NCBI RefSeq assembly: GCF_001697225.1
Contig: NZ_CP014671.1
Coordinates: 2,604,001-2,668,000 of the forward strand
Source of the DNA: Immundisolibacter cernigliae
GTDB lineage: Bacteria > Pseudomonadota > Gammaproteobacteria > Immundisolibacterales > Immundisolibacteraceae
DNA length: 64,000 nt
Direction of reading: 5' to 3'
Under the pieces are notes generated by a model. The model did no database searches. It was given only the letters and a program-made list of their open reading frames with translations, and was not told the DNA's origin. The number at the start of each line of letters is the position of its first letter. Positions within the stretch are counted from its first letter, which is position 1. The position numbers and the translations under genes were made by a program. Of this stretch, positions 30,457 to 54,254 are shown piece by piece.

Positions 30457-30535
30457 CGCTTGTCCTCCTCAAACGTCCGTGTACACGCCGGGCGCTGATC
30501 TGTCGTTATGGCGCCGCTGCCGGCTGCACTGCCGG

Positions 30536-31615: not shown

Positions 31616-31623
31616 CGCAGCAC

Positions 31624-32781: not shown

Positions 32782-32926
32782 CGCGGGCTCCCTGGGGCAG
32801 GCGGGGCTGGGTGAATCGTCGCGGAGCGATCCTGCCGTCGCGGCTCTGCGGCCGTTCCGGGCAAGTGCTGAACGCATGTTAAATCAACCGGCGCGGCGCG
32901 GCATCCCGGCAGTAGCCGCCATCGAT

Positions 32927-33175: not shown

Positions 33176-33271
33176 CGGACGGTCACTCTGTGGCGTGGTT
33201 TGTTGGTTATCATTCCGGTTCTTGCCTTCTGCCAGGCGTGGAAGGCGGCGTTCCCCACGGAGGAGTTCGAC

Positions 33272-34180
33272 ATGGCGAAGGTAACGGAATTCGGATACCT
33301 GGGCATCGGCGTCAAGGACGGCGACGCCTGGCGTGAGTTTGCCAGCCAGGTGGTTGGCATGGAGGTGCTGGATGAGGGCGACGGCGATCGCTTTTACCTG
33401 CGCATGGACAATCAGCACCACCGCATCGTCGTGAACCTGCACGGCGACGACGATATGGACTTCATCGGCTGGCGCGTGGCCGGGCCGGAAGAATTCGACG
33501 AGATGAAACGCCAGCTGGACGCCGCCGGCGTGGACTGGAAGCAGGCCGACGGCGAGGAGCGCAAGGAGCGCATGGTGCTGGACCTGCTCAAGTTCAAGGA
33601 CCCGGGTGGCAACCCGACCGAGATCTACCACGGCCCGCGGATCGAGACCTTCCTGCCCTTCCATCCCGGTCGGCGCATGTACGGCCGCTTCCTGACCGGT
33701 ACCGGCGGCGTTGGCCACTGCATCCTGCGCCAGGACGACGTGCAAAAGGCCTACCGCTTCTACACCGACGTGCTGGGCATGCGCGGCTCGGTGGAGTACA
33801 ACCTGCCGATCCCCGGCACGCCGATGACCGCCTCACCGGTGTTCATGCACTGCAACGACCGCGATCACTCGGTGGCCTTCCTGGGCGCGCCGATGGCAAA
33901 GCGCATCAACCACCTGATGATCGAGGTGGAGAACATGGACGACGTGGGCTACACGCTGGACATCGTGCGCAAGCGCAAGATCCCGGTGGCCATCCAGCCG
34001 GGCAAGCACAGCAACGACCAGATGTGGTCCTTCTACATGGGCAACCCGTCCGGGTGGCTGTGGGAGTACGGCTGGGGCGCCCGCAAGGCCACCCATCAGT
34101 CCGAATACTACGTGGCCGACGTGTGGGGCCATGGTGTCGAGGCCACCGGCTTTGGCATGGATCTGGAGATGCAGGCCTGA
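33272..34180 (+). CDS. Type I extradiol dioxygenase (BphC-like, VOC superfamily)
   Basis: It cleaves a catecholic ring next to the two hydroxyls using Fe(II). The 302 residues form two vicinal-oxygen-chelate modules. The iron ligands are visible in the second: His149 (GVGHCILR), His214 (INHLMIEV) and Glu265 (WLWEYGWG). These nearly superimpose on His146/His210/Glu260 of biphenyl BphC. GGAGG lies 7 nt before the ATG. It would act after the Rieske oxygenase and a dihydrodiol dehydrogenase, but no classical dihydrodiol dehydrogenase gene is in the window. The exact substrate (biphenyl-, PAH- or steroid-type catechol) is undetermined. Confidence 0.92.
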   Translation: MAKVTEFGYLGIGVKDGDAWREFASQVVGMEVLDEGDGDRFYLRMDNQHHRIVVNLHGDDDMDFIGWRVAGPEEFDEMKRQLDAAGVDWKQADGEERKERMVLDLLKFKDPGGNPTEIYHGPRIETFLPFHPGRRMYGRFLTGTGGVGHCILRQDDVQKAYRFYTDVLGMRGSVEYNLPIPGTPMTASPVFMHCNDRDHSVAFLGAPMAKRINHLMIEVENMDDVGYTLDIVRKRKIPVAIQPGKHSNDQMWSFYMGNPSGWLWEYGWGARKATHQSEYYVADVWGHGVEATGFGMDLEMQA

Positions 34181-34227
34181 CAGCAGGTCCGTGCCCGGTG
34201 GTGGTGACGCCACCGGGTGGTTTGGCT

Positions 34228-34258
34228 GCAAACGCCCCGACCCGTTCGGGGCGTTTGC
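34228..34258 (+). terminator. Hairpin between extradiol dioxygenase and dgkA
   Basis: A 13-bp perfect stem (34228-34240 with 34246-34258; GCAAACGCCCCGA and its complement) has a 5-nt loop. The three Ts lie inside the 3' arm and no longer T-run follows, so it is probably a weak or bidirectional terminator. dgkA starts 17 nt later. Confidence 0.6.
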
Positions 34259-34274
34259 GTTCCGGGGGTGTCGG

Positions 34275-34631
34275 ATGGGTCTGGCCAGGATCGGGCGTGC
34301 AGCGTATTACTCGGCCAAGGGCCTGCGGGCGGCCTTCGCCGGCGAGGAGGCGTTTCGCCAGGAGCTGCTGATCGTGGCGGTACTGACGCCAGTCGGGCTG
34401 TGGCTGGGGCGCACCGCCGTGGAACGGGCCTTGCTGGTCGGCAGCCTGCTGTTGCTGCTGATCGTGGAACTGCTGAACTCGGCCATCGAGGCGGCCATCG
34501 ACCGCATCGGCCTGGAGCGGCACGAACTGTCCGGTCGGGCCAAGGACATGGCTTCGGCGGCGGTGTTCGTGGCGCTGGTGTTGGCCTTGTCGGTGTGGGC
34601 ACTGATTGCCGGAGCCCGCTGGCTGACTTGA
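34275..34631 (+). CDS. dgkA: Diacylglycerol kinase
   Basis: DgkA is a small trimeric inner-membrane kinase that recycles diacylglycerol to phosphatidic acid. The 118 residues contain the family signature VELLNSAIEAAIDRIGLERHELSGRAKDMASAA, with the conserved Glu, Asn and Asp. Three membrane helices are apparent. Start ATG at 34275, directly after a hairpin. A second hydroxyacid dehydrogenase gene begins 35 nt after its stop and has its own AGGAGG site. Confidence 0.93.
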   Translation: MGLARIGRAAYYSAKGLRAAFAGEEAFRQELLIVAVLTPVGLWLGRTAVERALLVGSLLLLLIVELLNSAIEAAIDRIGLERHELSGRAKDMASAAVFVALVLALSVWALIAGARWLT

Positions 34632-34666
34632 GCGGCGCCGCCGTCAATTTTTGCAGGAGGTGTGCA

Positions 34667-35563
34667 ATGGTGCAGGTCGGTTACGTTGGACTGGGCAGCA
34701 TGGGGCTGCCGATGGCTCTCAATCTGCGCAAGGCCGGGTTCGGGCTGCAGGTGGTCAGCCGCAGCCGCGGGCCGATCGAGCGGGCCCTGGCCGCCGGTGC
34801 AACCGAGGCGGCCGGTTATGCGGCGCTGGCCGCGGCGGTGGATGCCGTGTGTACCTGTTTGCCGATGCCGGCCGACGTCGAGCGCGTGTACCTCGAACCC
34901 GACGGCCTGGTGGCGGCGGCCCGGCCGGGCACGCTGCTGATCGACCACAGCACGGTCGGACCGGACACCTGTCGCAGGATCGATACCGCTGCCCGCGCCC
35001 GCGGCGTGCATTTTCTCGATGCGCCGGTGTCGGGCGGCCCGGCCGGCGCGCAGGCCGGCACGCTCGGCATCATGGTCGGCGGCGAACGGCCAGTGTTCGA
35101 GCAGGCGCGCCCGGTGCTGGATGCCATGGGCAAGACGGTCGTCTACATGGGCGCCACCGGCAGCGGGGCCGTGGCCAAGCTGATCAACAACCTGCTGGTC
35201 GGCGTGCATCAGCGGGCGCTGATCGAGATGCTGCTGGTGGGCCAGAAAGCCGGCGTGGACCTGGACGCGCTGTATCAGGTGCTGATGGGCAGCAGCGGGC
35301 GTAGCGCGATTCTGGAAATGATGTACCCGCGCCTGAAGGCGCGCGACCTGGAACCGAAGTTCCGTACCGAGCTGCTGCACAAGGATCTGCGCCTGGCGCT
35401 CGAAATGGCCGCCGCATGCGGCGTGCGCAGCGCGACCGGCGAGACGGCGTTCGCGGCCATCAATGCCGCCATGGCAGCCGGTTATGCCGATCGCGACACC
35501 CTGGCCATGCTGCTGCCGCTGGAACGGGATGCCGGCGTGCAGCTGTTCGGCGCTTCGCCTTGA
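34667..35563 (+). CDS. NAD(P)-dependent beta-hydroxyacid dehydrogenase (3-hydroxyisobutyrate dehydrogenase family)
   Basis: This single-domain enzyme of 298 residues has the Rossmann motif VGYVGLGSMGLPMALNL at the N-terminus. The substrate motif DAPVSGGPAGAQAGTLGIMVGG and the catalytic Lys171 in GAVAKLINN follow. It may oxidise 3-hydroxyisobutyrate, glycerate, tartronate semialdehyde or another beta-hydroxyacid; sequence alone does not decide. An AGGAGG site precedes the ATG at 34667. It is related to, but clearly different from, each half of the fused protein at 24416-26278. Confidence 0.9.
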   Translation: MVQVGYVGLGSMGLPMALNLRKAGFGLQVVSRSRGPIERALAAGATEAAGYAALAAAVDAVCTCLPMPADVERVYLEPDGLVAAARPGTLLIDHSTVGPDTCRRIDTAARARGVHFLDAPVSGGPAGAQAGTLGIMVGGERPVFEQARPVLDAMGKTVVYMGATGSGAVAKLINNLLVGVHQRALIEMLLVGQKAGVDLDALYQVLMGSSGRSAILEMMYPRLKARDLEPKFRTELLHKDLRLALEMAAACGVRSATGETAFAAINAAMAAGYADRDTLAMLLPLERDAGVQLFGASP

Positions 35564-35698
35564 GCGGCGGTCACGTGTCGTCCGTCTGCCCGGCCTCTGG
35601 TGCCGGTTTGTCCCCCGCCAGGGCGCCCGTTGCAACGCTTCCCTAACGCTTATTCAGTTTATATTCGGGTTCTTCGGCCCAGGTTAAGGAGAACCGCG

Positions 35699-37126
35699 AT
35701 GAACGCCATCAACGAGCTGCCCCAGTCCCGTCTGCAGGACGAAATCAATCGGGTCTTCGCGTTGCAGCAGGCGCGCAAGATCGAGCTGCGCCAGACCACC
35801 GCCGAGCAGCGGCTGGAAAAACTGCGCCGCCTGCGCGCGGCGGTGATCGCGCACAAGGCGGACATCGTGGCGGCGGCCCACGCCGATATGCGCAAGCAGC
35901 CGGTCGAAGCGCTGCTGGGCGAGATCATGCCGGTCACGCAGGGCATCGACCTGGCGCTCAAGCACCTGAAGCGCTGGATGCGTCCGCAGCGCGTAAAGAC
36001 GCCGATCAACATGCTCGGCACGCGCGGCGAAATCCGTTACGAGCCCAAGGGCGCGGCGCTGATCATCGCGCCGTGGAACGTGCCGGTGTTTCTGAGCTTC
36101 GTGCCGCTGACCGGCGCCATCGCCGCCGGCTGCACGGCCATCATCAAGCCGTCCGAGATGACTCCGGCGCTGGGCGCGGTGATTCGCAACATCGTCGCCG
36201 AAACCTTCGACGAGGCCGAAGTGGCGGTGTTCGAGGGCGGGCCGGAAGTGGCGACGGCGCTGCTGACGATGCCGTTCGATCACATTTTCTATACCGGCGG
36301 TCCGGAAATCGGCAAGGTCGTCATGCGCGCCGCGGCTGAGCACCTGACGTCGGTCACGCTGGAGCTGGGCGGCAAGTCGCCGGTGATCGTGGACGAGAGC
36401 GCCGACATCGAGGCCGCTGCCGAGCGCCTGGTGTGGGGCAAGCTGCTCAACGGTGGCCAGATCTGCGTGGCGCCCGACTACGTGCTGGTGCACGAGTCGC
36501 GCAAGGAAGAGCTGCTCGGTGCGCTCGGTCGGCAGCTGAAAACGCACGCCACCGGCGAGGCCGGCAGGGCGCCGGACCTGACGCGCATCGTGAACGGGCG
36601 CCACCACGCCCGCGTGCAGGGTCTGCTGGACGACGCCCTGGCGCGCGGCGCGCGGGTGGTGGCCGGTGGCCAGTCCGATGCGGCGGACAATTTCATCGCC
36701 CCCACGGTGCTGGCCGACGTGGCGCTCGACTCGCGGCTGATGCAGGAGGAGATCTTCGGCCCGCTGCTGCCGGTGCTCGGCTATCAGGATCTGAACCGCG
36801 CGCTGGAGCTGATCAACGCCAAGCCCAAGCCGCTGGCGCTGTATGCCTTCAGCCGCATCAAGGACAACGTCGAGCGCATCCTGCGCGGCACCTCGGCCGG
36901 CGGCACCACCATCAACCACGTGATGCTGCATGGCCTGCACCCGAACCTGCCGTTCGGCGGCGTGAACAACAGCGGCATCGGCAAGTCGGGCGGGTTCTAT
37001 GGCTTTCAGGCGTTCTCGAACGAGCGCGCGGTGCTGCGCCAGGTCAGCGGCATCAGCTTCACGCGCTGGGTCATGCCGCCGTATTCGGCGCGTCTGTCCC
37101 GAATCATGGACCGCTTCGTGAAGTGA
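35699..37126 (+). CDS. NAD(P)-dependent aldehyde dehydrogenase (ALDH3/coniferyl-aldehyde-like)
   Basis: It oxidises an aldehyde to the acid. The 475 residues have the ALDH3-type layout without the long N-terminal extension. Visible are APWNVPVFLSFVPL, the general base Glu222 in LELGGKSP, the nucleophile Cys256 in NGGQICVAPDYV, and EEIFGPLLPV. The C-terminal region is basic and hydrophobic (RWVMPPYSARLSRIMDRF), suggesting membrane association as in fatty aldehyde dehydrogenases. It starts at ATG 35699 after AAGGAGAA. A TATATT hexamer at 35661 may be a -10 element, without a good -35. The AlkB-type hydroxylase follows 32 nt later; together they could turn an alkyl group into a carboxylate. Confidence 0.9.
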   Translation: MNAINELPQSRLQDEINRVFALQQARKIELRQTTAEQRLEKLRRLRAAVIAHKADIVAAAHADMRKQPVEALLGEIMPVTQGIDLALKHLKRWMRPQRVKTPINMLGTRGEIRYEPKGAALIIAPWNVPVFLSFVPLTGAIAAGCTAIIKPSEMTPALGAVIRNIVAETFDEAEVAVFEGGPEVATALLTMPFDHIFYTGGPEIGKVVMRAAAEHLTSVTLELGGKSPVIVDESADIEAAAERLVWGKLLNGGQICVAPDYVLVHESRKEELLGALGRQLKTHATGEAGRAPDLTRIVNGRHHARVQGLLDDALARGARVVAGGQSDAADNFIAPTVLADVALDSRLMQEEIFGPLLPVLGYQDLNRALELINAKPKPLALYAFSRIKDNVERILRGTSAGGTTINHVMLHGLHPNLPFGGVNNSGIGKSGGFYGFQAFSNERAVLRQVSGISFTRWVMPPYSARLSRIMDRFVK

Positions 37127-37158
37127 GTTTTCGATAATTCCAGGCAGGAGAAATCGAC

Positions 37159-38310
37159 ATGGACGTCGCGCTTGAGCAAGGCAAGGTTCGACTCAGTCCG
37201 CTGACCAAGGTCGGCGCCCTTCCAGTCAGCCTGACCGCGCTGCTGCCGTTTGTGGGCTACGCATTGGGCGGCGGGATGTGGCACTGGCTGACCATCGTTC
37301 TGCTGTTTGGCGTCGGGCCGTTCCTGGATCGCTGGCTGGGCGAGGACAATGCCAACGTGCCGGCGCACCTGGAGCGCCAGTATGAGCAAAGCCTGTATTA
37401 CCGCCTGACGCTGTGGGCGTACCTGCCGGTACAGATCGCGCTGGTGCTGTTCAGCTATCACCTGATCATCAATACCGACATGGCGCTGTACGCGCAGATC
37501 GGGCTGGCGCTGTCGATGGCGGTCGGCGTCGGTTTTGGCGCCACGCTGGCGCACGAGCTGTGTCATCACCCGAGCCGCCTGGACCGCTTCATCGGCGTGC
37601 AGGTGCTGTGCCTGTGCGGCATGGCCAATTTTCTCGTCTATCACAACTACGGGCACCACAACGTGGTGGCGACGCCTGAAGATCCGGGCTCGGCGCGCTA
37701 CGGGGAGTCGTTCTGGCAGTTCACGGTGCGCAACATCTCGCGCAAGTTCGTGATGTCCTGGCAGATCGAGGCGCAGCGCCTGCGCCGTCTGGGCAGCGGC
37801 TGGCTGTCGCCGCGCAACCTGATGATCTGGCTGACCCTGAACGAACTGGCCTGGGTAGTGGGTCTGACCTGGTACTTCGGGCCGCTGGCGCTGGCGCTGT
37901 TTGCTTTGCAATACGCCGCGCCGCGCTTTTTGCTGTCGGTGGGCGACTACCTGGAGCACTACGGCCTGTCGCGGCGCAAGCTGCCCAATGGCGAGTACGA
38001 GCCGCCGCGGGCGATTCACTCCTGGGATGACAGCTACATGCTGAGCAACTTCCTGTTCACGGCGGTGGACCGCCACGCCGACCATCACGAGAACTCCGGC
38101 CGGCCGTTCCAGATCCTGCGCGTGCGACCCGAGGCGCCGCGCCTGCCGTACGGCTACCTGACCATGATCTTCGCCGCCTTCGTGCCGCCGGTCTGGCGGC
38201 GGCTGGTGCACCCGGTGCTCGAGGCTTTCTACGACAAGGGCGAGGTGGTGCCGCACGCGCTGCCCGGCGCGTTGCCGGAACGTTTCGTGGCCGGGGCCCA
38301 TATCCACTGA
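37159..38310 (+). CDS. AlkB-type membrane di-iron hydroxylase (alkane 1-monooxygenase family)
   Basis: This integral membrane non-heme di-iron enzyme hydroxylates terminal methyl groups of alkanes or alkyl side chains. Its 383 residues have about six helices and the His boxes HELCHH (about 132-137), NYGHHN, LEHYGL and DRHADHHENSGRPFQ. The VATPEDPGSARYGES segment is diagnostic of AlkB and XylM-like proteins. It is close in length to AlkB (~400). The first box lacks the usual HELxHK lysine. AGGAG precedes the ATG. It is presumably co-transcribed with the aldehyde dehydrogenase. Rubredoxin and rubredoxin reductase, the usual electron donors, are not encoded here. Confidence 0.9.
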   Translation: MDVALEQGKVRLSPLTKVGALPVSLTALLPFVGYALGGGMWHWLTIVLLFGVGPFLDRWLGEDNANVPAHLERQYEQSLYYRLTLWAYLPVQIALVLFSYHLIINTDMALYAQIGLALSMAVGVGFGATLAHELCHHPSRLDRFIGVQVLCLCGMANFLVYHNYGHHNVVATPEDPGSARYGESFWQFTVRNISRKFVMSWQIEAQRLRRLGSGWLSPRNLMIWLTLNELAWVVGLTWYFGPLALALFALQYAAPRFLLSVGDYLEHYGLSRRKLPNGEYEPPRAIHSWDDSYMLSNFLFTAVDRHADHHENSGRPFQILRVRPEAPRLPYGYLTMIFAAFVPPVWRRLVHPVLEAFYDKGEVVPHALPGALPERFVAGAHIH

Positions 38311-43340: not shown

Positions 43341-43645
43341 GAAAAGTCTCCGAAGGCGGCCACCGGCGCCCGCCACCAGACCAGGTCGCGGCTGTGGATG
43401 CGCTCGCGCAGCGCGCCGATCAGTGTCGTGAGTTCACCCACTGGCGCCACCAGCCACAGCACCCGACGCCCGACCTGGCCGCGTACCCGCTCGCGGCTGC
43501 TGGCGGCGGCGAAGTCGCGGCCGTGCCCGGTGGCGTGCAGCAGGGTATAGGGCTGCTCCGGTGCGATGGCGCCGAGCGCATCCAGCACCGGGCCTTCGAG
43601 CTCGTCCGGGAACACCAGGGTCAGTTGCTGCAGGTCGGGGTTCAT
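43337..43645 (-). CDS. DUF3240-like small protein of metal RND operons
   Basis: This 102-residue cytosolic-looking protein has no signal peptide or membrane helix. It begins MNPDLQQLTLVFPDELEGPVLD and contains LLHATGHGRDFAAASSRERVRGQVGRR. Small proteins of this kind are found next to CzcA/CusA genes and have a PII-like or ferredoxin-like size and pattern, which suggests a metal- or ligand-sensing accessory role; that is inference. It overlaps both neighbours by 4 nt (ATGA at each end), so it is translationally coupled between czcA and czcC. Confidence 0.7.
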   Translation of the reverse strand: MNPDLQQLTLVFPDELEGPVLDALGAIAPEQPYTLLHATGHGRDFAAASSRERVRGQVGRRVLWLVAPVGELTTLIGALRERIHSRDLVWWRAPVAAFGDFS

Positions 43646-46600
43646 GGGCGCGCCTCCGCGGCGCTGAAACGCCGGTACAGGATGGGGAGCAGCAGCAGGG
43701 TCAGGGCGGTCGAGGTGATGAGCCCGCCCAGCACCACGATCGCCAGCGGGCGCTGGATCTCCGAGCCGGGCCCGGTCTGCAGCAGCAGCGGCACCAGGCC
43801 CAGGGCGGCGATGCCGGCGGTCATCAGCACCGGGCGCAGGCGCCGGCGGGCGCCGTCGTAGACCACCTGCTCGATCGGCAGGCCGGCGGCGCGCAGCTGG
43901 TTGAAGTGCGTCAGCAGCACCAGGCCGTTGAGCACCGCGATGCCGAGCAGGGCGATGAAGCCCACCGAGGCCGGCACCGACAGGTACTCGCCGGACGCCC
44001 ACAGGGCGATCGCCCCGCCGATCAGCGCGAACGGGATGTTGGAGAGGATCAGCACCGCCTGGCGCACCGAGCCGAGGGTGGCGAACAGCACGAAGAAGAT
44101 CAGCCCCAGCGCCACCGGCACCACCAGCCCCAGGCGCGCGGCGGCGCGCTGCTGATTTTCGAACTGACCGCCCCATACCAGCCGGTAACCGGGCGGCAGG
44201 GGCACCGCTTCGGCGACGCGCGCCCGGGCGTCGTCCACATAGCCCACCAGGTCGCGGCCGGCGACGTTGGCCTGCACCACGGCGAAGCGCTCGCCGTCCT
44301 CGCGGTCCACCTTGATCGGGCCGGCCATGCGCTCGATGCGGGCCAGATCGGCCAGGCGCGCGCTGCCGCCGTCGGGCAGGGCGATGCGTGTCTCGGCCAG
44401 GGCGTCGGCGTCGCGGCGCAGGCGCGGCTCGCCGCGCACCATCAGCGGGATGCGCTTGTTGCCTTCCAGCACGGTGCCGGCGCGCAGGCCGTCCACCTGG
44501 GCGCGCAGCTCGCGCTGCAGGGCCTGGGCATCGAGGCCGGCGCGGCCGACGGCCAGGCGGTCGAGCCGCAGTTGCAGGTACTGCACGCCGTCGTTGTGCA
44601 CGGTGAACACCTCGCTGGCGCCGGGGGTTTGTTCCAGCACCGCGGCGATGCGCCCGGCCAGGCGGTCGAGCTCGGCCAGGTCCGGGCCGAAGATCTTCAC
44701 CGCCAGATCGCCGCGCGAGCCGGTGAGCATCTCCGCCACGCGCATCTCGATCGGCTGGGTGAAGGTGAACTCGATGCCCGGAAAGCGCGCCAGCACCGCG
44801 CGCAGGCGCGCGGCCAGCCAGTCCTTGTCCGGCACCCGCCAGTCCTGCTTGGGCGCCAGCACCAGGAAGCTGTCGGTGTCGTTCAGGCTCATCGGATCGA
44901 GGCCGAGGTCGTCCGAGCCCAGGCGCGCCACGATGCTCTTCACCTCCGGCACCTCGGCCAGGATGGCGCGCTGCACGGCCTGGTCGAGGGCGAGGCTGGC
45001 CTGTATGTCGATCGACGGCAGCTTGGTGAGCTGCACCAGGATGGCGCCCTCGTCCAGGGTCGGCATGAAGCTCTTGCCGGTGCGCAGGTAGGCGCCGCTG
45101 GCCAGCAGCAGGCCGACCACGGCCACCGCGATCACCGGCGCCGGGCGGCGCAGGCAGGCCGCCAGCAGGCGCGCGTAGGCCGGGCCGAGCAGGCGCATGA
45201 CCCAGGGCTCGCGGTGCGGCCCGGCGCGCAGCACCAGCGAGGCGAGCACCGGGATGAAGGTGAGTCCAGCCAGCAGCGAGGCGCCGAGCGCGAACACGAT
45301 GCTCAGCGCCACCGGCGCGAACAGCTTGCCCTCGAGCCCTTCCAGCGTCAGCAGCGGCAGGAACACCAGCGCGATGATGAAGACCCCGGTGGCCACCGGC
45401 TGCGCCACCTCGGTGACCGCGCGGTAGATCACGTGCAGCCGCGGCAGGCGCTGCGCCTCGTCGCCGGTCAGGCGCTCGACCGCGTTCTCGACCACCACCA
45501 CGGCGGCGTCGACCAGGATGCCGATGGCGATGGCCAGTCCGCCCAGGCTCATCAGGTTGGCGCTCATGCCGGTCAGGCGCATCAGCAGGAAGGTGCCGAG
45601 CGCGGCCAGCGGCAGCGTGGTGGCCACCACCAGTGCCGCGCGCAGCTCGCCCAGGAACAGCAGCAGCAGCACCACCACCAGCACCGAGGCTTCGATCAGC
45701 GCCCGGCTGACGGTGCCCACGGCGCGGGCGATCAGCTCGCTGCGGTCGTAGAACACGTTCAGGGTCACGCCGGGCGGCAGGCTCGGTTGCAGCGCGTCGA
45801 GCTTGGTGCGCACGCCGGCCACCACCGCGCCGGCGTTGGCGCCGCGCAGACCGACCACGATCGCCTCCACCGCCTCGCCGCGGCCGTCCTTGCTCACCGC
45901 GCCGAGCGGCGCGAGTTCGCCAAAGCGCACCTGCGCCAGATCGGCCACGCGCAGCACCCGGCCGTCGCGCCGCGCCACCACCACGCCGGCCACGGCGTCG
46001 AGCCCGTCATAGGCGCCGGTGGCGCGCACCACCAGCGCCTCCTCACCGTCGTGCAGGCGGCCGGCGCCGTCGTTCTGGTTGTTGACCTCGAGGGCGGCGG
46101 CCAGCTCGGCCAGTGTCACCCCGGCGGCGGCCAGCGCGGCGCGATCCGGTACCACCTCGTAGGTGCGCACGCGGCCGCCGAGCGCGTTGACGTCGGCCAC
46201 ACCGGGTACGGTGCGCAGCGCCGGGCGGATGGTCCAGTCGAGCAGATCGCGCTTGTCGACCAGGCTCAGATCACCCTCGATGGTGAACATGAACAGGTCC
46301 GACAGCGGTGTGGCGATCGGCGCCAGCCCGCCTTCGACGCCCGCCGGCAGGGCGTCGCGCACACCGGCGTAGCGCTCGGCCACCTGCTGGCGCGCCCAGT
46401 AGATGTCGGTGCCGTCCTCGAACACCAGCGTCAGATCGGCGATCGCGTACTTGGCCAGGGCCCGCAGCTGCACCTGCCGCGGCAGGCCGAGCAGTTCCAT
46501 CTCCAGCGGCACCAGGATGCGCTGCTCGACCTCCTGCGGGGTCATGCCCGGCGCCTTCAGGATCAGCTTGACCTGGGTCGGCGAGATGTCCGGGAAGGCG

Positions 46601-46710
46601 TCGATCGGCAGCTGCCGCCAGGCGGTGATGCCGGCGCCCACGCCGAGCGCGGTGACCAGCAGCACCACCAGGCGCTGGGCGAGGGCGAATTCCACCAGGC
46701 GCGACAGCAT
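43642..46710 (-). CDS. czcA: Heavy-metal RND efflux permease (CzcA/CusA family)
   Basis: This proton-driven inner-membrane pump for metal cations has 1,022 residues. It begins with the HME-type WRQLPIDAFPDISPTQVKL and keeps typical segments such as GTDIYWARQQVAERYAGV. The transmembrane-4 motif, near residue 395, reads GGLAIAIGILVDAAVVVVEN. This resembles the CusA-type GG-IAIG-VDAA pattern more than the DFG-DGA pattern of Zn/Co/Cd pumps, so a monovalent-metal or mixed specificity is possible. The start is 1 nt after the czcB stop and the end overlaps the DUF3240-like gene by 4 nt. Confidence 0.9.
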   Translation of the reverse strand: MLSRLVEFALAQRLVVLLVTALGVGAGITAWRQLPIDAFPDISPTQVKLILKAPGMTPQEVEQRILVPLEMELLGLPRQVQLRALAKYAIADLTLVFEDGTDIYWARQQVAERYAGVRDALPAGVEGGLAPIATPLSDLFMFTIEGDLSLVDKRDLLDWTIRPALRTVPGVADVNALGGRVRTYEVVPDRAALAAAGVTLAELAAALEVNNQNDGAGRLHDGEEALVVRATGAYDGLDAVAGVVVARRDGRVLRVADLAQVRFGELAPLGAVSKDGRGEAVEAIVVGLRGANAGAVVAGVRTKLDALQPSLPPGVTLNVFYDRSELIARAVGTVSRALIEASVLVVVLLLLFLGELRAALVVATTLPLAALGTFLLMRLTGMSANLMSLGGLAIAIGILVDAAVVVVENAVERLTGDEAQRLPRLHVIYRAVTEVAQPVATGVFIIALVFLPLLTLEGLEGKLFAPVALSIVFALGASLLAGLTFIPVLASLVLRAGPHREPWVMRLLGPAYARLLAACLRRPAPVIAVAVVGLLLASGAYLRTGKSFMPTLDEGAILVQLTKLPSIDIQASLALDQAVQRAILAEVPEVKSIVARLGSDDLGLDPMSLNDTDSFLVLAPKQDWRVPDKDWLAARLRAVLARFPGIEFTFTQPIEMRVAEMLTGSRGDLAVKIFGPDLAELDRLAGRIAAVLEQTPGASEVFTVHNDGVQYLQLRLDRLAVGRAGLDAQALQRELRAQVDGLRAGTVLEGNKRIPLMVRGEPRLRRDADALAETRIALPDGGSARLADLARIERMAGPIKVDREDGERFAVVQANVAGRDLVGYVDDARARVAEAVPLPPGYRLVWGGQFENQQRAAARLGLVVPVALGLIFFVLFATLGSVRQAVLILSNIPFALIGGAIALWASGEYLSVPASVGFIALLGIAVLNGLVLLTHFNQLRAAGLPIEQVVYDGARRRLRPVLMTAGIAALGLVPLLLQTGPGSEIQRPLAIVVLGGLITSTALTLLLLPILYRRFSAAEARP

Positions 46711-46711
46711 C

Positions 46712-47755
46712 TCAGGGCTCCTGCCGGGCCAGTACCTTCAGCGCCGCCACGCCGCGGGCCACCACCCTGGCGTCGGCCGGCAGCCCCAGCACCACGGCGT
46801 ACTCGCCATCGCGGCCGAGGACCTCCACCGGCTGCGGCCGAAAGCCGCCGTCCACCGCCAGGAACACCAGGGTCTGATCGCCGTCGCGGCCGAGCGCAGC
46901 GGCCGGCACCCGCCGGGCGGCCGCCGGCGGGGTGTCGAGAATCTCGATCTCCAGGGTCTGGCCGGCGGCCAGTCCGGCCGCCGGCAGCTCGGCGCGCAGC
47001 AGCGCGGCGCGGCTGGCCGGATCGAGCACGGTGCCCACGGCGATCACCCGGCCGGCGGGCTCGCCGCCGGGCAGGCGCACCGCCTGCCCGGCGCGCACAC
47101 GCCCGACCAGGGTCGGCGGCAGCTGCGCCTCGGCCCACAGGCGATCGCCGCTCAGCAGCAGCGCGGCGCTGTGGCCAGCGGCGACTGGCTCGCCCAGGCG
47201 CAACTCGCCCTCGTGCACCACCCCGGCGGCTGGCGCCAGCAGCCGGTAGACGGCCGGCTGGCCGTCTACCGCGGCGGTGGCAGCGAGCAGGTCGCGGCCG
47301 GCGCCGAACTCGGCCTGCGCGGCCGCCAGCGCCGCCTGACTCTGCTGTGCCTGGCGTGCCGGCACGATGCCCTCGCGCAGCAGCGCGGTATCGCGTGCCG
47401 CCTGCTGGCGGGCCTGTTCCAGTCGCGCCTGCCGGTCGCGCTGGGCAGCGTGGGCGGCCAGATACTCGGCGCTGTGCAGTTCCACCAGCGCCTGGCCGGC
47501 CGCCACCGCCTCGCCTTCCTGCGCCAGCCGGCGCGTCACCACGCCGCCGAAGGGCACCACCACCGCGCGGGCGCCGCTGCCCGGCAGCACCAGCGTGGCC
47601 GGCAGGCGCGCGGCCATCAGCACCGTCGCCGGCGCGGCCGGCTGGGTTTCGACGCCGAGTGCGGCGGCCTGCTCGGGGCTGACGGCGATGTCGGCGGCCA
47701 GCAGCGGACGAATGAGGCCGAACAGGACGGCCAGGGCGAGGGCGAGAGGGCGCAT
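46712..47755 (-). CDS. czcB: CzcB-type periplasmic adaptor of a heavy-metal RND system
   Basis: This membrane-fusion protein has 347 residues and a cleavable signal peptide (MRPLALALAVLFGLIRPLLAA). Lipoyl half-motifs occur around VVVPFGGVVTRRLAQEGEAVAAGQALVELHS and VYRLLAPAAGVVHEG, with an Ala/Arg/Gln-rich coiled hairpin between. The C-terminal beta-barrel and membrane-proximal domain follow. It lacks the His-rich N-terminal extension known in some CzcB proteins. It lies 76 nt downstream of the kinase gene and 1 nt before czcA. Confidence 0.88.
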   Translation of the reverse strand: MRPLALALAVLFGLIRPLLAADIAVSPEQAAALGVETQPAAPATVLMAARLPATLVLPGSGARAVVVPFGGVVTRRLAQEGEAVAAGQALVELHSAEYLAAHAAQRDRQARLEQARQQAARDTALLREGIVPARQAQQSQAALAAAQAEFGAGRDLLAATAAVDGQPAVYRLLAPAAGVVHEGELRLGEPVAAGHSAALLLSGDRLWAEAQLPPTLVGRVRAGQAVRLPGGEPAGRVIAVGTVLDPASRAALLRAELPAAGLAAGQTLEIEILDTPPAAARRVPAAALGRDGDQTLVFLAVDGGFRPQPVEVLGRDGEYAVVLGLPADARVVARGVAALKVLARQEP

Positions 47756-47831
47756 CGCAGCTTCCGGTGACGGGACTGGCGCGCAGTGTCCGACCCCAGA
47801 CTTTGGAAACGCTTAAAACGGGCGGTGGCTT

Positions 47832-49244
47832 TCAGCCCTGCGCCGGATCGGCCGGGACGGGCGCAAAGCCGCCGAGCGACACCCGCAGGCGGCCGCCATC
47901 GAGCGTGAAGGACAGTTGCAGTCCGAGCGCGGTAGCCAACGCCCGGGCGAGCGCGAGGCCGAGGCCGGAATGGGCCCCGTTGCCACCCTCGTGGCGGTGA
48001 AAGAAGCGCTCCGCGAGGCGGCCCAGATCGGCCGGTTCGAGCAGCGGCGCGGCGTTTTCCAGCCACAGCGCGGGGGGATCACAGGCGCACTGCACCCGCA
48101 GGCAGTCGCCGGGCGGGGCGTGCTGCACGGCGTTGTCGAACAGGATGGCGAGCAGGCGCTCGAGCAGCGCCGCATCGGTCAGCACCCAGCAGGGCTCGAC
48201 CCGAAGTTGCCAGTCGAGGCCGTGGTCGGTGGCCGGCATCCGGCAGCGCTCGGCCTGTGCCGCCAGCAGCGCGGCCAGATCGACCGGCTCCGGCTGCGGC
48301 TGTTCGCTGCCTGCCTCGACGCGGGCCAGATACAGCAGGCCGTTGACGATTTTGGTCATCTCGGCGAGCGCTGCGTCGAGCTGGGCGAGATGTGCGCCCG
48401 CAATACCCGGCTGGCGCCGGGCCAGTTCGGCCAGCAGCCGCGCCTCGGCCAGCGGCGTGCGCAGTTCGTGGGCGAGATCACGCGAGAAGCGCCGCTCGCG
48501 TTCGAGCGCGGCCAGCAGGCGCTCCAGCGTGGCCGCGAGCTTGCCGGCGACGGGCGCCAGTTCGCTCGGCAGGTCGTCGCCTGGCGGCGGCTGGCCGCCG
48601 CCGTCGAGTGGCAGTTCCGCCACCGCGCGGCCGAAGGCATCGAGCGGGGCGAGCGCGCGGCGGATCGACCAGGCGGTGAGCACCAGGACCAGCAGCAGGG
48701 TGCCGCCGGTGCCGGTGACCAGGATGCGGTGCAGACGCCGCTCGAGCGCATCCAGCGCCTCGCGCTCTTCGGCGACCACGACCAGCAGCGCGCCGCGCGG
48801 GTCATCGGACGGCAGCGGCACCACCCGGGCCAGGGCGCGGCCGCGGTGGCCGTCCGGCAGCCGAAGGTCGTAGTAGGCGCCGTCCCTGCTCGGTTGCGCC
48901 GGGCGCGCCAGATCGCGCCCATGGCTGGAGGCCGAGCGCGCCAGCACGGCGCCGTGGCCGTCCCAGACCTGATAGAAATCAGTGTGCCCGTGGCCGCCAA
49001 ACTGCGGCAGCAGGGCCTCGATGGGCAGTTGCCGGCCGGCGCCGGGGGCGCCCAGGTAGGCGGTCAGCGCCTGAGCCCGGGCCGCCAGGCCGACGTCGAA
49101 GCGCCGGTACAGCTCGGCGTCGACCAGATAGTCGATGACCGCGAACAGACCGCCCATGGTCAGCGCCACGGTCAGGCCCAGGCGCAACCCCAGGGTGCTG
49201 CGCAACGAAGGCCGCCAGCCGCGTCGGTACTCAGCCCAGGACAT
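47832..49244 (-). CDS. Heavy-metal sensor histidine kinase (CzcS/CusS-like)
   Basis: This membrane histidine kinase has 470 residues. Two transmembrane helices (about 18-38 and 172-195) enclose a periplasmic domain. A HAMP-like segment (RRALAPLDAFGRAVAELPL), the phospho-acceptor His259 in FSRDLAHELRTPLAEA, and the N-box AILFDNAVQHAP and G-box GAHSGLGLALARALA follow. I start at ATG 49244, which overlaps the response-regulator gene by 14 nt; an ATG at 49277 is also possible. It lies directly upstream of czcB, so it presumably senses the metal exported by the pump. Confidence 0.9.
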   Translation of the reverse strand: MSWAEYRRGWRPSLRSTLGLRLGLTVALTMGGLFAVIDYLVDAELYRRFDVGLAARAQALTAYLGAPGAGRQLPIEALLPQFGGHGHTDFYQVWDGHGAVLARSASSHGRDLARPAQPSRDGAYYDLRLPDGHRGRALARVVPLPSDDPRGALLVVVAEEREALDALERRLHRILVTGTGGTLLLVLVLTAWSIRRALAPLDAFGRAVAELPLDGGGQPPPGDDLPSELAPVAGKLAATLERLLAALERERRFSRDLAHELRTPLAEARLLAELARRQPGIAGAHLAQLDAALAEMTKIVNGLLYLARVEAGSEQPQPEPVDLAALLAAQAERCRMPATDHGLDWQLRVEPCWVLTDAALLERLLAILFDNAVQHAPPGDCLRVQCACDPPALWLENAAPLLEPADLGRLAERFFHRHEGGNGAHSGLGLALARALATALGLQLSFTLDGGRLRVSLGGFAPVPADPAQG

Positions 49245-49896
49245 AGCCGAAACCGCGGCGGTTTTCGATCTGCCCATCCCAGCCGGCGGCGGCGAGCTTG
49301 CCGCGCAGGCCGCTCATCAGCACCTCGATCACCTTGTCGGAGGCGCGGGCATCGGCGTCATACAGGCGCTCGAACAGCATGGCCCGCGACAGCACCCGGC
49401 CGCGGCCGTGCAGCAGGACTTCGAGCAGCGCGTACTCGCGCGGCGACAGGTTCAGCGGCCGTCCCGCGCAGCGGGCGACACGCCGGGCGCTGTCGAGTTC
49501 GAGATTGCCGGCCGCCAGCTGCGCCGTGGTCGCGCCGTGGTAGCGCCGGCCCAGTGCCCGCAGGCGGGCGATCAGCTCATCCAGCGCGAAGGGCTTGACC
49601 AGGTAGTCATCGGCACCGGCGTCCAGCGCCGCCACGCGGTCGGTGAGCTGGTCGCGGGCCGACAGCACCAGCACCCGGGTCGGCACTCGCCGGGCGCGCA
49701 GATGCGCCAGCACCGCCATGCCGTCGACCTTTGGCAGGCCCAGATCGAGCACCGTGAGCGGGTAGTCGTAGCCGTCCAGAAAGGCCAGGGCAGCAGCACC
49801 GTCGGCGGCGGCATCGACCGCGAAACCGGCGCTGGCGAGGCCCATCTGCAGGCCCTCGCGCAGGCGCTGGGAATCTTCCACCAGCAGCAGGCGCAT
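49231..49896 (-). CDS. OmpR-family response regulator (CzcR/CusR-like)
   Basis: This 221-residue regulator has a receiver domain with phospho-acceptor Asp51 (TVLDLGLPKVDG) and Lys in DDYLVKPFALDELIARLRAL. The winged-helix domain (about 128-220) has the motif LNLSPREYALLEVLLHGRGRVLSR and ends ENRRGFGYVLG. The first gene of the efflux operon, it should control the operon's own promoter, located in the 327-bp gap to the divergent acetyltransferase gene. Confidence 0.92.
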   Translation of the reverse strand: MRLLLVEDSQRLREGLQMGLASAGFAVDAAADGAAALAFLDGYDYPLTVLDLGLPKVDGMAVLAHLRARRVPTRVLVLSARDQLTDRVAALDAGADDYLVKPFALDELIARLRALGRRYHGATTAQLAAGNLELDSARRVARCAGRPLNLSPREYALLEVLLHGRGRVLSRAMLFERLYDADARASDKVIEVLMSGLRGKLAAAGWDGQIENRRGFGYVLG

Positions 49897-50223: not shown

Positions 50224-52923
50224 ATGACCATCCGCAACCTCAACTACCTGTTCAAACCCAAATCGGTGGCGCTGATCGGCGCCAGCACCCGGCCAGGCTC
50301 GGTCGGTGCCGTGCTGGCGCGCAACCTGTTCCGGGCCGGTTTCGACGGGCCGGTGATGCCAGTCAATCCGAAGTACGTGGCCGTCGAGGGCGTGCTGGCG
50401 TACAAGAACGTGGCCAGCCTGCCGCTGGCACCGGACCTGGCCGTGATTGCCACGCCACCGGACACGGTGCCGGGCCTGATCGCCGAGCTGGGCGCCCGTG
50501 GCACCAAGGCGGCCGTGATCATCACCGCCGGTTTCAAGGACAGCGACAACGCGCACGGCGGCGCGCTGCGCCGCGCCATGCTGGAGGCCGCCCAGCCGCA
50601 TCTGCTGCGCATTGTCGGGCCCAACTGCGTGGGTCTGATGGTGCCCGGACAGCATCTGAATGCGAGCTTTGCGCACCTGACGCCGCGCGCCGGCCGGCTG
50701 GCCTTCGTCGCCCAGTCGGGCGCGGTGGTGACCTCGGTCATCGACTGGGCGCAGCCGCGCGGGGTTGGCTTCTCGCACCTGGTGTCGCTGGGCGATGTGG
50801 CCGACGTGGACTTCGGCGACCTGCTGGACTACCTGGCCGGCGACCCGGACACCGACGCCATCCTGTTGTACATCGAGGCGGTGCGCAGTCCGCGCAAGTT
50901 CATGTCGGCGGCACGTGCCGCGGCGCGCGTCAAGCCGGTGGTGGTGGTCAAGGCCGGGCGCAGTGCCGCCGCCGCCCGTGCCGCGGCCTCGCACACCGGG
51001 GCGTTGGCCGGTAACGACGCGGTCTACGACGCGGTGTTCCGGCGCGCCGGCATGCTGCGCGTGCACACCCTGGACGAGCTGTTCACGGCGGCGGAGATCC
51101 TGGCCACCACGCGCCCGCCCGCGGGCGACCGGCTGGCCATCATCAGCAACGGCGGCGGCATCGGCATCATGGCCACCGATGCCCTGGGCTACATGGGCGG
51201 CCGGCTGGCCGAGCTGGCGCCGGCCACGATCGCAGCGCTCGACCGCGTGTTGCCGGCAACCTGGTCGCACGGCAATCCGGTCGACATCGTCGGCGACGCG
51301 CCGCCCGAGCGTTACGAGGCGGCCCTGCTGCCGCTGCTGCAGGATCCGGGCGTGGATGCCGTGCTGGCGCTGCACGCGCCGGTGGCCGTCGCCGACGGGG
51401 CCGAAGCGGCCCGCGCCGTGGTGCGCGCCTTCAGGAGCAAGCCGGGCAAGACGCTGGTGACCAGCTGGGTGGGCGATCAGGTTGCCCGGGCCGGGCGGCA
51501 GGTGTTCACCGACAATCGCATCGGCACCTGCCGCACGCCGGAAGAGGCGGTGCGCGCCTTCATGTACCTGGAGCGTTACCGGCGTGGCCGGCTGGCGCTG
51601 ATGCAAACCCCGCCGTCGGTGCCGGAACAGTTCGAGCCGGATGCCGAGCGTGCGCGTTATGTCTGTCGCCAGGCCCTGGCTGATCATCGGGACTGGCTGT
51701 CGCCGGATGAAGTTGCGGCGCTGCTGGCCGCTTATCACATCCCGCAGGTGCAGCCGCGGCACGCCGCGACGCCCGAGGCGGCGGGCCAGGCAGCGGCCGA
51801 CATCGGCGGCCCGGTGGCGCTCAAGATCCGCTCGCCGGACATCATCCACAAGACCGATGTCGGCGGCGTGGTCCTGAGCCTGCAGGGTGAGGCCGCGGTA
51901 CGCGGCGCCGCCGAGGCGATGCTCGAACAGGTACGCAAGAGCCGCCCGGATGCGCGCATCGACGGCTTTCAGGTCGAGCCGATGCTGGACCGCAGCCGCA
52001 GCCACGAGCTGATCGTCGGCATTGCCGTCGACCCGCAGTTCGGGCCGTGCATCCTGTTCGGCCAGGGCGGCACGGCGGTGGAGGTGCTCAACGACACCGC
52101 CATCGGCCTGCCGCCGCTGAACATGCGCCTGGCGCACGAGCTGATGAGCTTCACCCGCGTGCACGGCCTGCTGCAGGGCCACCGCGGCATCCCCGGCGCG
52201 GATCTGGACGCCATCGCGCTGACGCTGATCAAGGTCGCCCAGATGGCGGCCGACCTGGCCGAACTGGTGGAGCTCGACATCAACCCATTGCTGGCCAGCC
52301 CCGAAGGGGTGCTGGCGGTGGACGTGCGCGTGCGCGTGGCCCCGGTGGCCGATCCGGCCGCCCCGCGCCTGGCGATCCGGCCCTATCCGAAGTCCCTGGA
52401 GCAGACGGTGGTGATCGGCGACGGGCGCAGCCTGCTGCTGCGGCCGATCCTGCCCGAGGACGAGCCGAAGCTGCAGAAAAGCTTCGAACGCCTGACGCCC
52501 GAGCAGGTGCGGCTGCGCTTTTTCGTGCCGATGAAGGAGCTCGGCCACAGCCTGGCCGCGCGCCTGACGCAGATCGACTACGACCGCGAGATGGCGCTGA
52601 TCCTGACCGAACCGGGCATTCCGGGCACCACGGAAATCTTCGGCGTGGTGCGCATCGCCGCCGATCCGGACAACGAGCGCGGCGAGTACGCGGTGGTGGT
52701 GCCCGAGCACATGACCGGCCAGGGCCTGGGCGCGCTGCTGATGCGCCAGATCATCGATTACGCCAAAAAGCGCGGCCTGCGTGAGGTGTGGGGCGACGTG
52801 CTGCGCGAGAACGCGGCCATGCTGGGCCTGGTGCGCAAGCTCGGCTTCCGGGTCAAGGATGACCCCGATGATCCGTCCCTGGTGCGGGTGACCCTGGACC
52901 TGACCGCGTTGCCTGCGACCTGA
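50224..52923 (+). CDS. patZ: Protein lysine acetyltransferase Pat/PatZ (acyl-CoA-synthetase-like plus GNAT domain)
   Basis: It transfers acetyl groups from acetyl-CoA to lysines of metabolic enzymes, classically AMP-forming acetyl-CoA synthetase. The 899 residues comprise a CoA-binding Rossmann domain (1-130; KSVALIGASTRPGSVGAVLARNL), succinyl-CoA-ligase-like domains (130-460), an ATP-grasp-like domain (485-710; ALKIRSPDIIHKTDVGGVVL) and a C-terminal GNAT domain (725-899; EYAVVVPEHMTGQGLGALLM). This is the architecture of E. coli PatZ (886 residues) and Salmonella Pat. I chose ATG 50224; the open frame upstream is not family-like. A deacetylase-family gene follows after 3 nt. Confidence 0.92.
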   Translation: MTIRNLNYLFKPKSVALIGASTRPGSVGAVLARNLFRAGFDGPVMPVNPKYVAVEGVLAYKNVASLPLAPDLAVIATPPDTVPGLIAELGARGTKAAVIITAGFKDSDNAHGGALRRAMLEAAQPHLLRIVGPNCVGLMVPGQHLNASFAHLTPRAGRLAFVAQSGAVVTSVIDWAQPRGVGFSHLVSLGDVADVDFGDLLDYLAGDPDTDAILLYIEAVRSPRKFMSAARAAARVKPVVVVKAGRSAAAARAAASHTGALAGNDAVYDAVFRRAGMLRVHTLDELFTAAEILATTRPPAGDRLAIISNGGGIGIMATDALGYMGGRLAELAPATIAALDRVLPATWSHGNPVDIVGDAPPERYEAALLPLLQDPGVDAVLALHAPVAVADGAEAARAVVRAFRSKPGKTLVTSWVGDQVARAGRQVFTDNRIGTCRTPEEAVRAFMYLERYRRGRLALMQTPPSVPEQFEPDAERARYVCRQALADHRDWLSPDEVAALLAAYHIPQVQPRHAATPEAAGQAAADIGGPVALKIRSPDIIHKTDVGGVVLSLQGEAAVRGAAEAMLEQVRKSRPDARIDGFQVEPMLDRSRSHELIVGIAVDPQFGPCILFGQGGTAVEVLNDTAIGLPPLNMRLAHELMSFTRVHGLLQGHRGIPGADLDAIALTLIKVAQMAADLAELVELDINPLLASPEGVLAVDVRVRVAPVADPAAPRLAIRPYPKSLEQTVVIGDGRSLLLRPILPEDEPKLQKSFERLTPEQVRLRFFVPMKELGHSLAARLTQIDYDREMALILTEPGIPGTTEIFGVVRIAADPDNERGEYAVVVPEHMTGQGLGALLMRQIIDYAKKRGLREVWGDVLRENAAMLGLVRKLGFRVKDDPDDPSLVRVTLDLTALPAT

Positions 52924-52926
52924 GCC

Positions 52927-53847
52927 ATGCACACCGCCTTCATCACCCACCCGGCCTGCAACGAACATGACGCCGGCCCCTGGCACCCGGAAGCCCCCGG
53001 TCGCCTGGCGGCGATCCAGGATCACCTGATCGCGACCGGCCTGGATCCGCTGTTGCGCCATTTCGAGGCGCCGGAAGTGACGCGCGAACAACTGCTGCGC
53101 GTGCACGACGCCGACTATCTGGACGCCCTGGACGCCCGCAGCCCGGAGCACGGCCTGATCCACGTGGATCCGGACACCGCCATGAATCCCTACACGCTGG
53201 CCGCCGCCCGGCGCGCCGCGGGCGCGGCGGTGCAGGCGACCGATCTGGTGCTGGCCGGCACGGTGCAAAATGCCTTCTGCTGCGTGCGCCCGCCGGGTCA
53301 CCACGCCGAACGCCGCCGCGCCATGGGTTTCTGCTTCTACAACAACGTCGCGGTTGGCGCCGCGCACGCGCTGGCCAGCGGCCGGGTGCAGCGCGTGGCG
53401 ATCGTCGATTTCGACGTGCACCACGGCAACGGCACCGAGGAAATTTTTCATCATCACGCCGACGTGCTGCTGTGCAGCAGCTTCCAGCACCCGTTTTATC
53501 CGTACACGGACATGAACTTTCGGGCCCCCAATGTGGTCCATGCCCCAATTGCCGCCGGCCTGGGCAGTGAGGCCTTTCGCGCCGCGATCGAGGACGAGTG
53601 GCTGCCGGCGCTGGAGCGCTTTGCGCCGCAGATGATGTTCATCTCGGCCGGCTTCGACGGCCATCGCGATGACGAACTGGCCCAGCTGTGCCTGACCGAG
53701 GACGACTACGCCTGGGTGACGCGGGTCGTCCACGAACTGGCCGCGCGCCACGCGCAGGGCCGCATCGTGTCGGTGCTGGAAGGCGGTTACGATTTGCCGG
53801 CCCTGGCCCGCAGCGTGCGGGCGCATCTTGACGTCCTGCTTACCTGA
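52927..53847 (+). CDS. Histone-deacetylase-family amidohydrolase
   Basis: This zinc-dependent deacylase of the arginase/HDAC fold has 306 residues. Active-site motifs are RPPGHHAE (His pair at about 125-126), DFDVHHGNGT (zinc Asp and His at about 163-165) and SAGFDGHRDDEL (zinc Asp near 245), followed by EGGYDLPAL. It resembles the bacterial class II HDAC-like and acetylpolyamine amidohydrolase group. It begins 3 nt after the Pat-type acetyltransferase stop, so the two are co-translated. I infer that it reverses lysine acylation, although small-molecule substrates such as acetylpolyamines are possible. Confidence 0.9.
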   Translation: MHTAFITHPACNEHDAGPWHPEAPGRLAAIQDHLIATGLDPLLRHFEAPEVTREQLLRVHDADYLDALDARSPEHGLIHVDPDTAMNPYTLAAARRAAGAAVQATDLVLAGTVQNAFCCVRPPGHHAERRRAMGFCFYNNVAVGAAHALASGRVQRVAIVDFDVHHGNGTEEIFHHHADVLLCSSFQHPFYPYTDMNFRAPNVVHAPIAAGLGSEAFRAAIEDEWLPALERFAPQMMFISAGFDGHRDDELAQLCLTEDDYAWVTRVVHELAARHAQGRIVSVLEGGYDLPALARSVRAHLDVLLT

Positions 53848-53891: not shown

Positions 53892-54254
53892 ATGAGTTAT
53901 GACATGGACCCGATTGTCGGCAACTGGTACCAGCACGTCGAAAAGGGCCTCGATTTCGAGGTGGTGGCCGTCGACGAGGAGACCGCCAGTGTGGAAATCC
54001 AGTACGTGGATGGCACGCTGGACGAAATTCCCCTCGACGACTGGTACGAAATCGATCTGGAACCGGCCGAGCCGCCGGAGGACTGGACCGGCCCGCTCGA
54101 TGCCGTGGACGAGGAGGAAGAAGAAGAGCCCGAGATCGGCGTGCCGGAAGACGACTGGGACGAACCGGACGCCGAAGCTCGCCCCCGGGGTCGACGCGCC
54201 GCCCGTGATGATGACCTGCCCCCGGAGGAGCTGGGCGGCGACTGGGACGAGTAA
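53892..54254 (+). CDS. Small acidic conserved protein (possibly DUF6763)
   Basis: This 120-residue protein has a compact N-terminal half (about 1-62; DPIVGNWYQHVEKGLDFEVVAVD, then EIQYVDGTLDEIPLDDWYEI) that looks like a small beta-fold. A strongly acidic, low-complexity tail follows, with runs of Glu and Trp/Asp-Glu repeats interrupted by RPRGRRAARD. It resembles uncharacterised gammaproteobacterial proteins that I believe are grouped as DUF6763. No catalytic motif or signal peptide is visible. An AGAGGAAA site precedes the ATG. It lies 44 nt after the deacetylase gene and may be in the same operon. Function unknown. Confidence 0.75.
   Translation: MSYDMDPIVGNWYQHVEKGLDFEVVAVDEETASVEIQYVDGTLDEIPLDDWYEIDLEPAEPPEDWTGPLDAVDEEEEEEPEIGVPEDDWDEPDAEARPRGRRAARDDDLPPEELGGDWDE

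Follow-up and report, generated by a model that had tools for sequence, protein, structure and literature searches.

A Pat-type acetyltransferase gene adjoining an HDAC-family deacetylase gene in Immundisolibacter cernigliae: a probable write/erase module for lysine acetylation

In the genome of the soil bacterium Immundisolibacter cernigliae, a gene encoding a predicted Pat-type protein acetyltransferase is followed on the same strand by a gene encoding a predicted zinc deacetylase of the HDAC family, and a survey of genomes of the same class showed that the pairing of these two genes is beyond chance. Judging from the sequences and their relatives, the pair probably acts as a module that writes and erases acetyl marks on lysines of acyl-CoA ligases. 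The stretch of DNA analyzed (64,000 nucleotides; hereafter, the window) corresponds to positions 2604001–2668000 of the genome, which is a single contig of 3,243,537 bases. The two genes and their junction are located in the window as follows.

50224..52923, + strand: Pat-type protein of 899 amino acids, with an N-terminal part resembling ADP-forming acyl-CoA synthetases and a C-terminal GNAT acetyltransferase
52927..53847, + strand: HDAC-family zinc deacetylase of 306 amino acids (Hist_deacetyl, PF00850, 1.4e-86)
52921..52929, + strand: TGA-GCC-ATG junction, with the 3-nt gap GCC at 52924–52926

The coordinates, the GCC spacer, and the Pfam domains of both proteins bear out a preliminary description of the window, which had placed the two genes 3 nt apart in the same direction. 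The TGA-GCC-ATG junction is identical in three Immundisolibacter genomes (that of the window, G001, and L021). L021 is a metagenome-assembled genome and the closest named relative found, and its HDAC is 90% identical to that of the window. The Pat start at 50224 agrees with the chain start of PDB 9it0 (query residue 2 was aligned to chain residue 2). Both genes are under purifying selection, the overall ratio of nonsynonymous to synonymous substitution rates (dN/dS) being 0.04–0.22. In comparison with L021, the values were 0.22 for the synthetase part (residues 147–705), 0.13 for the GNAT domain, and 0.15 for the HDAC; the corresponding values for G001 were 0.10, 0.04, and 0.14.

The conservation of the gene pair across genomes, which the preliminary description had named as a check, was examined by an HDAC search of 370 genomes of the same class (E ≤ 1e-80). 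The search found 89 places in 87 genomes, and approximately 5 kb on each side was taken for all of them; distances outside the window are those between aligned ends, not annotated starts. A Pat homolog was present near the HDAC in 42 of the 89 places, and within 400 nt in 40 of them. Thirty-four of the 42 pairs are divergent (54–335 nt apart, median 117.5), four are co-directional with Pat first (the window, G001, G011, and G149), three are co-directional with HDAC first (two of these being more than 2.5 kb away), and one is convergent. The co-directional layout is the minority arrangement, and the divergent one is usual. The 40 close pairs include one GNAT-only gene (L120), two genes cut by contig ends (L126 and L130), and two weak cases (L153, with 27% identity, and L199, in which only the synthetase part was matched). 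Among named genomes, a Pat homolog was found near 33 of the best 80 HDAC loci, mostly in the divergent orientation, with Halomonas and Marinobacter abundant. The chance that two genes fall within 5 kb of each other in a 3.5-Mb genome is approximately 0.3%, and the observed linkage is about a hundred-fold above this value. Furthermore, both proteins were found in 60 of the 370 genomes against 21.2 expected (Fisher 1e-25, odds ratio 18.7, kinship not corrected). The Pat counts are lower bounds, as only two candidates were scored per genome, and the Pat list left out seven genomes in which the Pat match lacked the GNAT part or was a fragment. A third conserved partner within 5 kb of the HDAC was also sought and rejected, the largest other clusters of open reading frames (ORFs) covering at most 8 of the 89 loci; this rough clustering included antisense ORFs, with Pat, HDAC, and their antisense frames set aside.

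The catalytic residues of the window HDAC are intact. The following positions were assigned by alignment.

53299..53304, + strand: His125-His126 catalytic pair in RPPGHH, invariant in 21 of 21 aligned relatives
53413..53421, + strand: zinc ligands Asp163 and His165, invariant in 21 of 21
53656..53658, + strand: zinc ligand Asp244, invariant in 21 of 21
53788..53790, + strand: oxyanion tyrosine Tyr288 of EGGY, invariant in 21 of 21
53677..53679, + strand: Leu251, at the position of the polyamine gatekeeper Glu of HDAC10 (alignment to HDAC6 domains and 5ji5)

The protein combines the HDAC fold, the His-His pair, the Asp-His-Asp zinc site, and the catalytic Tyr of classical zinc-dependent deacetylases. 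It also has both the RPPGHH and EGGY motifs, which are associated with robust deacetylases in the consulted part of PMC11532494. The AlphaFold2 model (pLDDT 93.7) best matched 5ji5 (Z 52.2 over 305 residues, root-mean-square deviation 1.0, 56% identity), and the next structures were Pseudomonas aeruginosa HDAH and other HDAH/HDAC6 entries. Among the matches listed, HDAC10 (5td7) scored Z 44.3, equal to HDAC6. Acetylpolyamine amidohydrolases were not among the best 50 VIA-align matches listed, which is no evidence against polyamine activity.

These data bear on an alternative in which the HDAC is a small-molecule amidohydrolase, hydrolyzing an acetylpolyamine or another N-acyl amide, and Pat acts on the same molecule, the two forming a metabolic module. 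Polyamine deacetylases and pesticide amidases with this fold are indeed known among bacterial HDAC-family proteins (PMC11532494, sections 6 and 16), Foldseek lists dimethoate hydrolase 9gkw among the matches of the window HDAC, and GNATs include small-molecule acetyltransferases, several distant ones being among the matches listed. We nevertheless regard this alternative as unlikely, as the best structures are 5ji5 and the HDAH/HDAC6 enzymes, the HDAC partner is a Pat-type GNAT, and the gatekeeper position is occupied by Leu251, the residue found in HDAC6 domain 2, and not by Glu. Section 16 of PMC11532494 identifies Glu as the polyamine gatekeeper in HDAC10, and notes that bacterial cluster 4 polyamine deacetylases also lack it. 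Leu251 alone does not decide against polyamine activity for this reason, and it would count more firmly against an HDAC10-like enzyme than against a cluster 4 enzyme. Cluster 4 acetylpolyamine amidohydrolases and HDAC10 are further characterized by L1 and L2 (polyamine-specificity) loops and a head-to-head dimer. In addition, the match to acetylpolyamine amidohydrolase 3q9b begins at query residue 82 and chain residue 116, and the window HDAC, with approximately 34 fewer residues before the match, seems to lack the extra N-terminal loops of 3q9b, although the loops were not directly compared.

The domains and key residues of the Pat-type protein are as follows.

50260..50640, + strand: CoA_binding_2 domain, residues 13–139 (PF13380, 1.3e-24)
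50689..51102, + strand: Succ_CoA_lig domain, residues 156–293 (PF13607, 6.5e-59)
51136..51549, + strand: Ligase_CoA_2 domain, residues 305–442 (PF19045, 9.1e-11)
51670..52338, + strand: ATP-grasp_5 domain, residues 483–705 (PF13549, 2.5e-83)
52432..52851, + strand: GNAT acetyltransferase domain, residues 737–876 (PF13302, 1.7e-7; PF00583, 1.1e-10)
50992..50994, + strand: His257 in SHTGALAG, missing from Escherichia coli PatZ (alignment)
51847..51849, + strand: His542 in HKTDVGG (alignment)
52684..52686, + strand: Glu821, at the position of the GNAT glutamate conserved in Pat proteins (alignment)

His257 and His542 presumably correspond to the alpha catalytic (phospho-)histidine and the beta histidine, respectively, of ADP-forming acyl-CoA synthetases, and we take the two to be the phosphoryl-carrying histidines of these enzymes. 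The window Pat matched PDB 9it0, a protein acetyltransferase, over its full length (residues 2–893, phmmer E 3.9e-201), and is 40.7% identical to E. coli PatZ. The GNAT glutamate in GEYAVVV and the CoA-binding loop GQGLG are both present, as in type I GNAT lysine acetyltransferases (class I alpha, Pat/PatZ). The domain order and the GNAT match agree with the earlier label "Pat/PatZ-type", but the synthetase part departs from it: both histidines are intact in the window Pat, whereas PatZ of E. coli, aligned as a control, has lost the first (alpha) one. According to the consulted part of PMC8556138, type I and II GNATs have an inactive synthetase part because the histidine is missing; this is a described property and does not define the class. 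The window Pat, with His257 and His542, does not have this property, and most of the Pats examined likewise have both histidines. Among the HDAC-linked Pats, 33 of 42 retain both, seven lost both, and two lost one; among the unlinked Pats, 51 of 59 retain both. All 42 linked Pats, and 56 of the 59 unlinked ones, have the GNAT glutamate.

The retention of the histidines raises another alternative, namely, that Pat is mainly an ADP-forming acyl-CoA synthetase whose own activity, and not that of other enzymes, is adjusted by autoacetylation through the GNAT tail and by its reversal through the HDAC. The purifying selection on the synthetase part agrees with this idea, and PatZ is reported to autoacetylate (PMC8556138 and PMC6456759, in part). 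However, the linkage persists where both histidines are gone: Pats of the Halomonas and Marinobacter set have lost the synthetase motifs and still adjoin the HDAC. Moreover, in L120 (genome G133, 5001–6582) the HDAC is divergent from a stand-alone GNAT of 201 amino acids that matches the Pat GNAT profile (3e-56); this genome also has a full-length Pat elsewhere. Self-tuning is therefore improbable as the main role of the pair. The invariant GNAT glutamate of the linked Pats, the loss of the synthetase motifs in some of them, and the GNAT-only partner in L120 together suggest that the acetyltransferase, and not the synthetase chemistry, is likely the constant partner of the HDAC. A search with the Pat GNAT-domain profile found no match near the 47 unlinked HDACs, and L120 is the sole GNAT-only case in the search. 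Four Pats close to that of the window (L225, L226, L228, and L229) have a deletion or replacement of the synthetase histidine stretch and make up a natural set for the study of synthetase decay.

The history of the pairing was approached by a quick tree of Pats with 101 rows: 36 linked Pats from the survey, six linked Pats from the named loci, 58 unlinked Pats, and E. coli PatZ. Four linked survey loci and L087 were left out as partial, and one row, L153, has a long branch. Linked Pats occur in both of two large, deep clades, and the pairing has accordingly been gained or lost repeatedly. The clade with the window Pat and PatZ has 41 rows (32 unlinked, six divergent, two co-directional, and one convergent), and the other has 56 (27 unlinked, 27 divergent, and two co-directional). 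The linked/apart label needs 19 changes on the tree, at least 12 of them forced by well-supported branches, with the direction of gain or loss unpolarized. In the HDAC tree, the window HDAC groups with HDACs mostly partnered by divergent Pats of the other Pat clade (node 88, not strongly supported). This grouping suggests, and only suggests, that the Immundisolibacter lineage may have joined the same eraser to a different Pat.

Elsewhere in the genome, the search for HDAC-family proteins found only that of the window, and the SIR2 search found no matches. ATP-grasp_5 matches above the cut-off were the window Pat, a frame of 728 amino acids, and sucC, with two more below the cut-off; these matches suggest only one Pat-type protein in the genome. 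The E. coli control genome matched SIR2 and not the HDAC family, in agreement with the earlier statement that enterics use a sirtuin encoded elsewhere. We rejected the idea that the HDAC is a general replacement for sirtuins: a SIR2 protein, although not found in the genome of the window, occurs in 14 of the 40 genomes with a linked pair, as well as in 12 of 23 in which the two genes lie apart and in 13 of 30 that have Pat but not this HDAC.

As for potential targets, the best acetyl-CoA synthetase of the genome (512137–513993, 1031.5 bits) and a propionyl-CoA-synthetase-like paralog carry the canonical target motif in the form LPKTRSGKIMR, and other ligases of the genome carry PX4GK-like motifs. 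The window itself encodes an AMP-forming acyl-CoA ligase with a PX4GK motif (IPKTGVGKINK; 28849–30456, minus strand), a GTP-type phosphoenolpyruvate carboxykinase (4976–6037, minus strand), and the tricarboxylic acid cycle genes sucA, sucB, lpd, sucC, and sucD. The typical Pat targets that the preliminary description had pointed out in the window are thus present, but their co-location is weak evidence because the best acetyl-CoA synthetase is encoded approximately 2.1 Mb away from the pair.

Several observations weigh against a dedicated write/erase module. The gene of the likeliest target, acetyl-CoA synthetase, lies far from the pair. No Pat homolog lies within 5 kb of 47 of the 89 HDACs (8 of them near a contig end), many Pats lie away from any HDAC, and the clade of the window Pat is mostly unlinked. 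The frequency of SIR2 does not differ significantly between linked genomes and Pat genomes without the HDAC (p 0.62). A simple promoter scan at the locus found no sigma-70-type sites, the scan being uninformative; equally uninformative was a terminator scan, which found three terminator-like sites, every one on the opposite strand, against 1.6 expected. The separation of the two genes in many relatives might even be taken to mean that they are functionally unrelated neighbors merely sharing an operon, but the hundred-fold excess of linkage, seen in several orientations and lineages, and the co-occurrence of the two proteins make this very hard to believe. The repeated linkage, co-occurrence, intact catalytic residues, gatekeeper Leu, and target motifs support the write/erase proposal of the preliminary description well, and we consider this function probable on these grounds.

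In the proposed mechanism, the two genes would form one transcription unit, with co-transcription and translational coupling. The type I GNAT domain would shut off AMP-forming acyl-CoA synthetases by acetylating their catalytic lysine, with acetyl-CoA as the donor, the first candidate substrates being the acetyl-CoA synthetase and its propionyl-CoA-synthetase-like paralog. The HDAC would hydrolyze the acetyl-lysine, making the synthetases active again. Given the two intact histidines, the N-terminal synthetase part of Pat may also form acetyl-CoA from acetate, ATP, and CoA. More tentatively, the pair could possess three activities, with Pat acting as an ADP-forming acetyl-/acyl-CoA synthetase that feeds its own GNAT domain and the co-translated HDAC freeing acetate.

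If the write/erase function is confirmed, reversible lysine acetylation in many Gammaproteobacteria would be run by a linked Pat–HDAC pair, and not by Pat and a distant sirtuin alone; deacetylation would be tied to hydrolysis, with no need for NAD+. For a widespread group of bacterial HDACs, the substrates of which are mostly unknown, the physiological partner of the eraser could then be tested directly. The retained histidines call into question the general view of the synthetase part in type I acetyltransferases as nothing more than a dead sensor domain. Should the three-activity module be real, the charge state of a reversible, ADP-forming acetate-activating enzyme would be coupled to the shutting off of its AMP-forming competitors. 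Because both histidines persist in the majority of the type I Pats examined, enteric Pat, with its inactive synthetase, would then depart from the rule. A literature search found no description of Pat–HDAC gene linkage in proteobacteria, nor of any type I GNAT in which the synthetase part is active; subscription papers lay mostly outside the search, so that neither result is proof of absence.

Some features surround the pair. A small, acidic DUF6763 protein (PF20549) is encoded at 53892–54254 (+), starting 44 nt past the HDAC gene, and the stretch between the HDAC and DUF6763 genes contains a CCGCGG...CCGCGG inverted repeat. Only in the Immundisolibacter loci is the pair followed by DUF6763 and EamA genes. 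Directly upstream of the Pat gene and divergent from it, the region 43642–49896 (−) encodes a resistance-nodulation-division (RND)-type efflux permease and adaptor (named by eye), and then a sensor kinase and response regulator. Farther away, the region 22473–38310 contains aromatic degradation genes, encoding a ring-hydroxylating dioxygenase, a biphenyl-2,3-diol 1,2-dioxygenase-like extradiol dioxygenase, a benzaldehyde-dehydrogenase-like protein, an acyl-CoA ligase, and an acyl-CoA dehydrogenase. These genes fit a hydrocarbon degrader rich in acyl-CoA ligases, which an acetylation switch could control. An ORF of 690 amino acids at 24206–26278 (+) has two hydroxyisobutyrate-dehydrogenase-type matches (residues ~74–361 and ~388–656) and looks like a fused or tandem-duplicated dehydrogenase.

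Among known systems, PDB 5ji5, an HDAC-superfamily protein of Burkholderia phymatum, resembles the window HDAC in sequence and fold. The Pat/PatZ (YfiQ)–CobB system of Salmonella and E. coli has a writer with the same domain order; it differs in that PatZ lost the alpha-histidine kept by the window Pat, and in that the E. coli eraser is a sirtuin encoded elsewhere, whereas the eraser of the window is an HDAC in the same unit. The pair is similar in role to RpPat and the zinc deacetylase LdaA of Rhodopseudomonas palustris, a Pat writer and a zinc eraser that control many AMP-forming acyl-CoA synthetases according to the consulted part of PMC6640162. In Bacillus subtilis, the GNAT writer AcuA and the zinc HDAC-type eraser AcuC, encoded in one operon, act on acetyl-CoA synthetase (PMC8556138 and PMC13039410, in part). 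The window resembles acuABC in that a GNAT writer and an HDAC eraser are adjacent on the same strand, with a 3-nt gap. In contrast, AcuA is a small GNAT without a synthetase part, the acuABC operon includes acuB (a CBS-ACT regulator) whereas nothing lies between the genes of the window pair, and acsA adjoins acuABC. AcuC belongs to HDAC cluster 2c (PMC11532494, in part), whereas the window HDAC is nearest to 5ji5 and HDAH/HDAC6. With acuB missing and acsA encoded elsewhere, the window pair does not qualify as an acu operon; our best reading, by analogy, is that its logic is like that of Bacillus acuABC, with a Pat-type writer instead.

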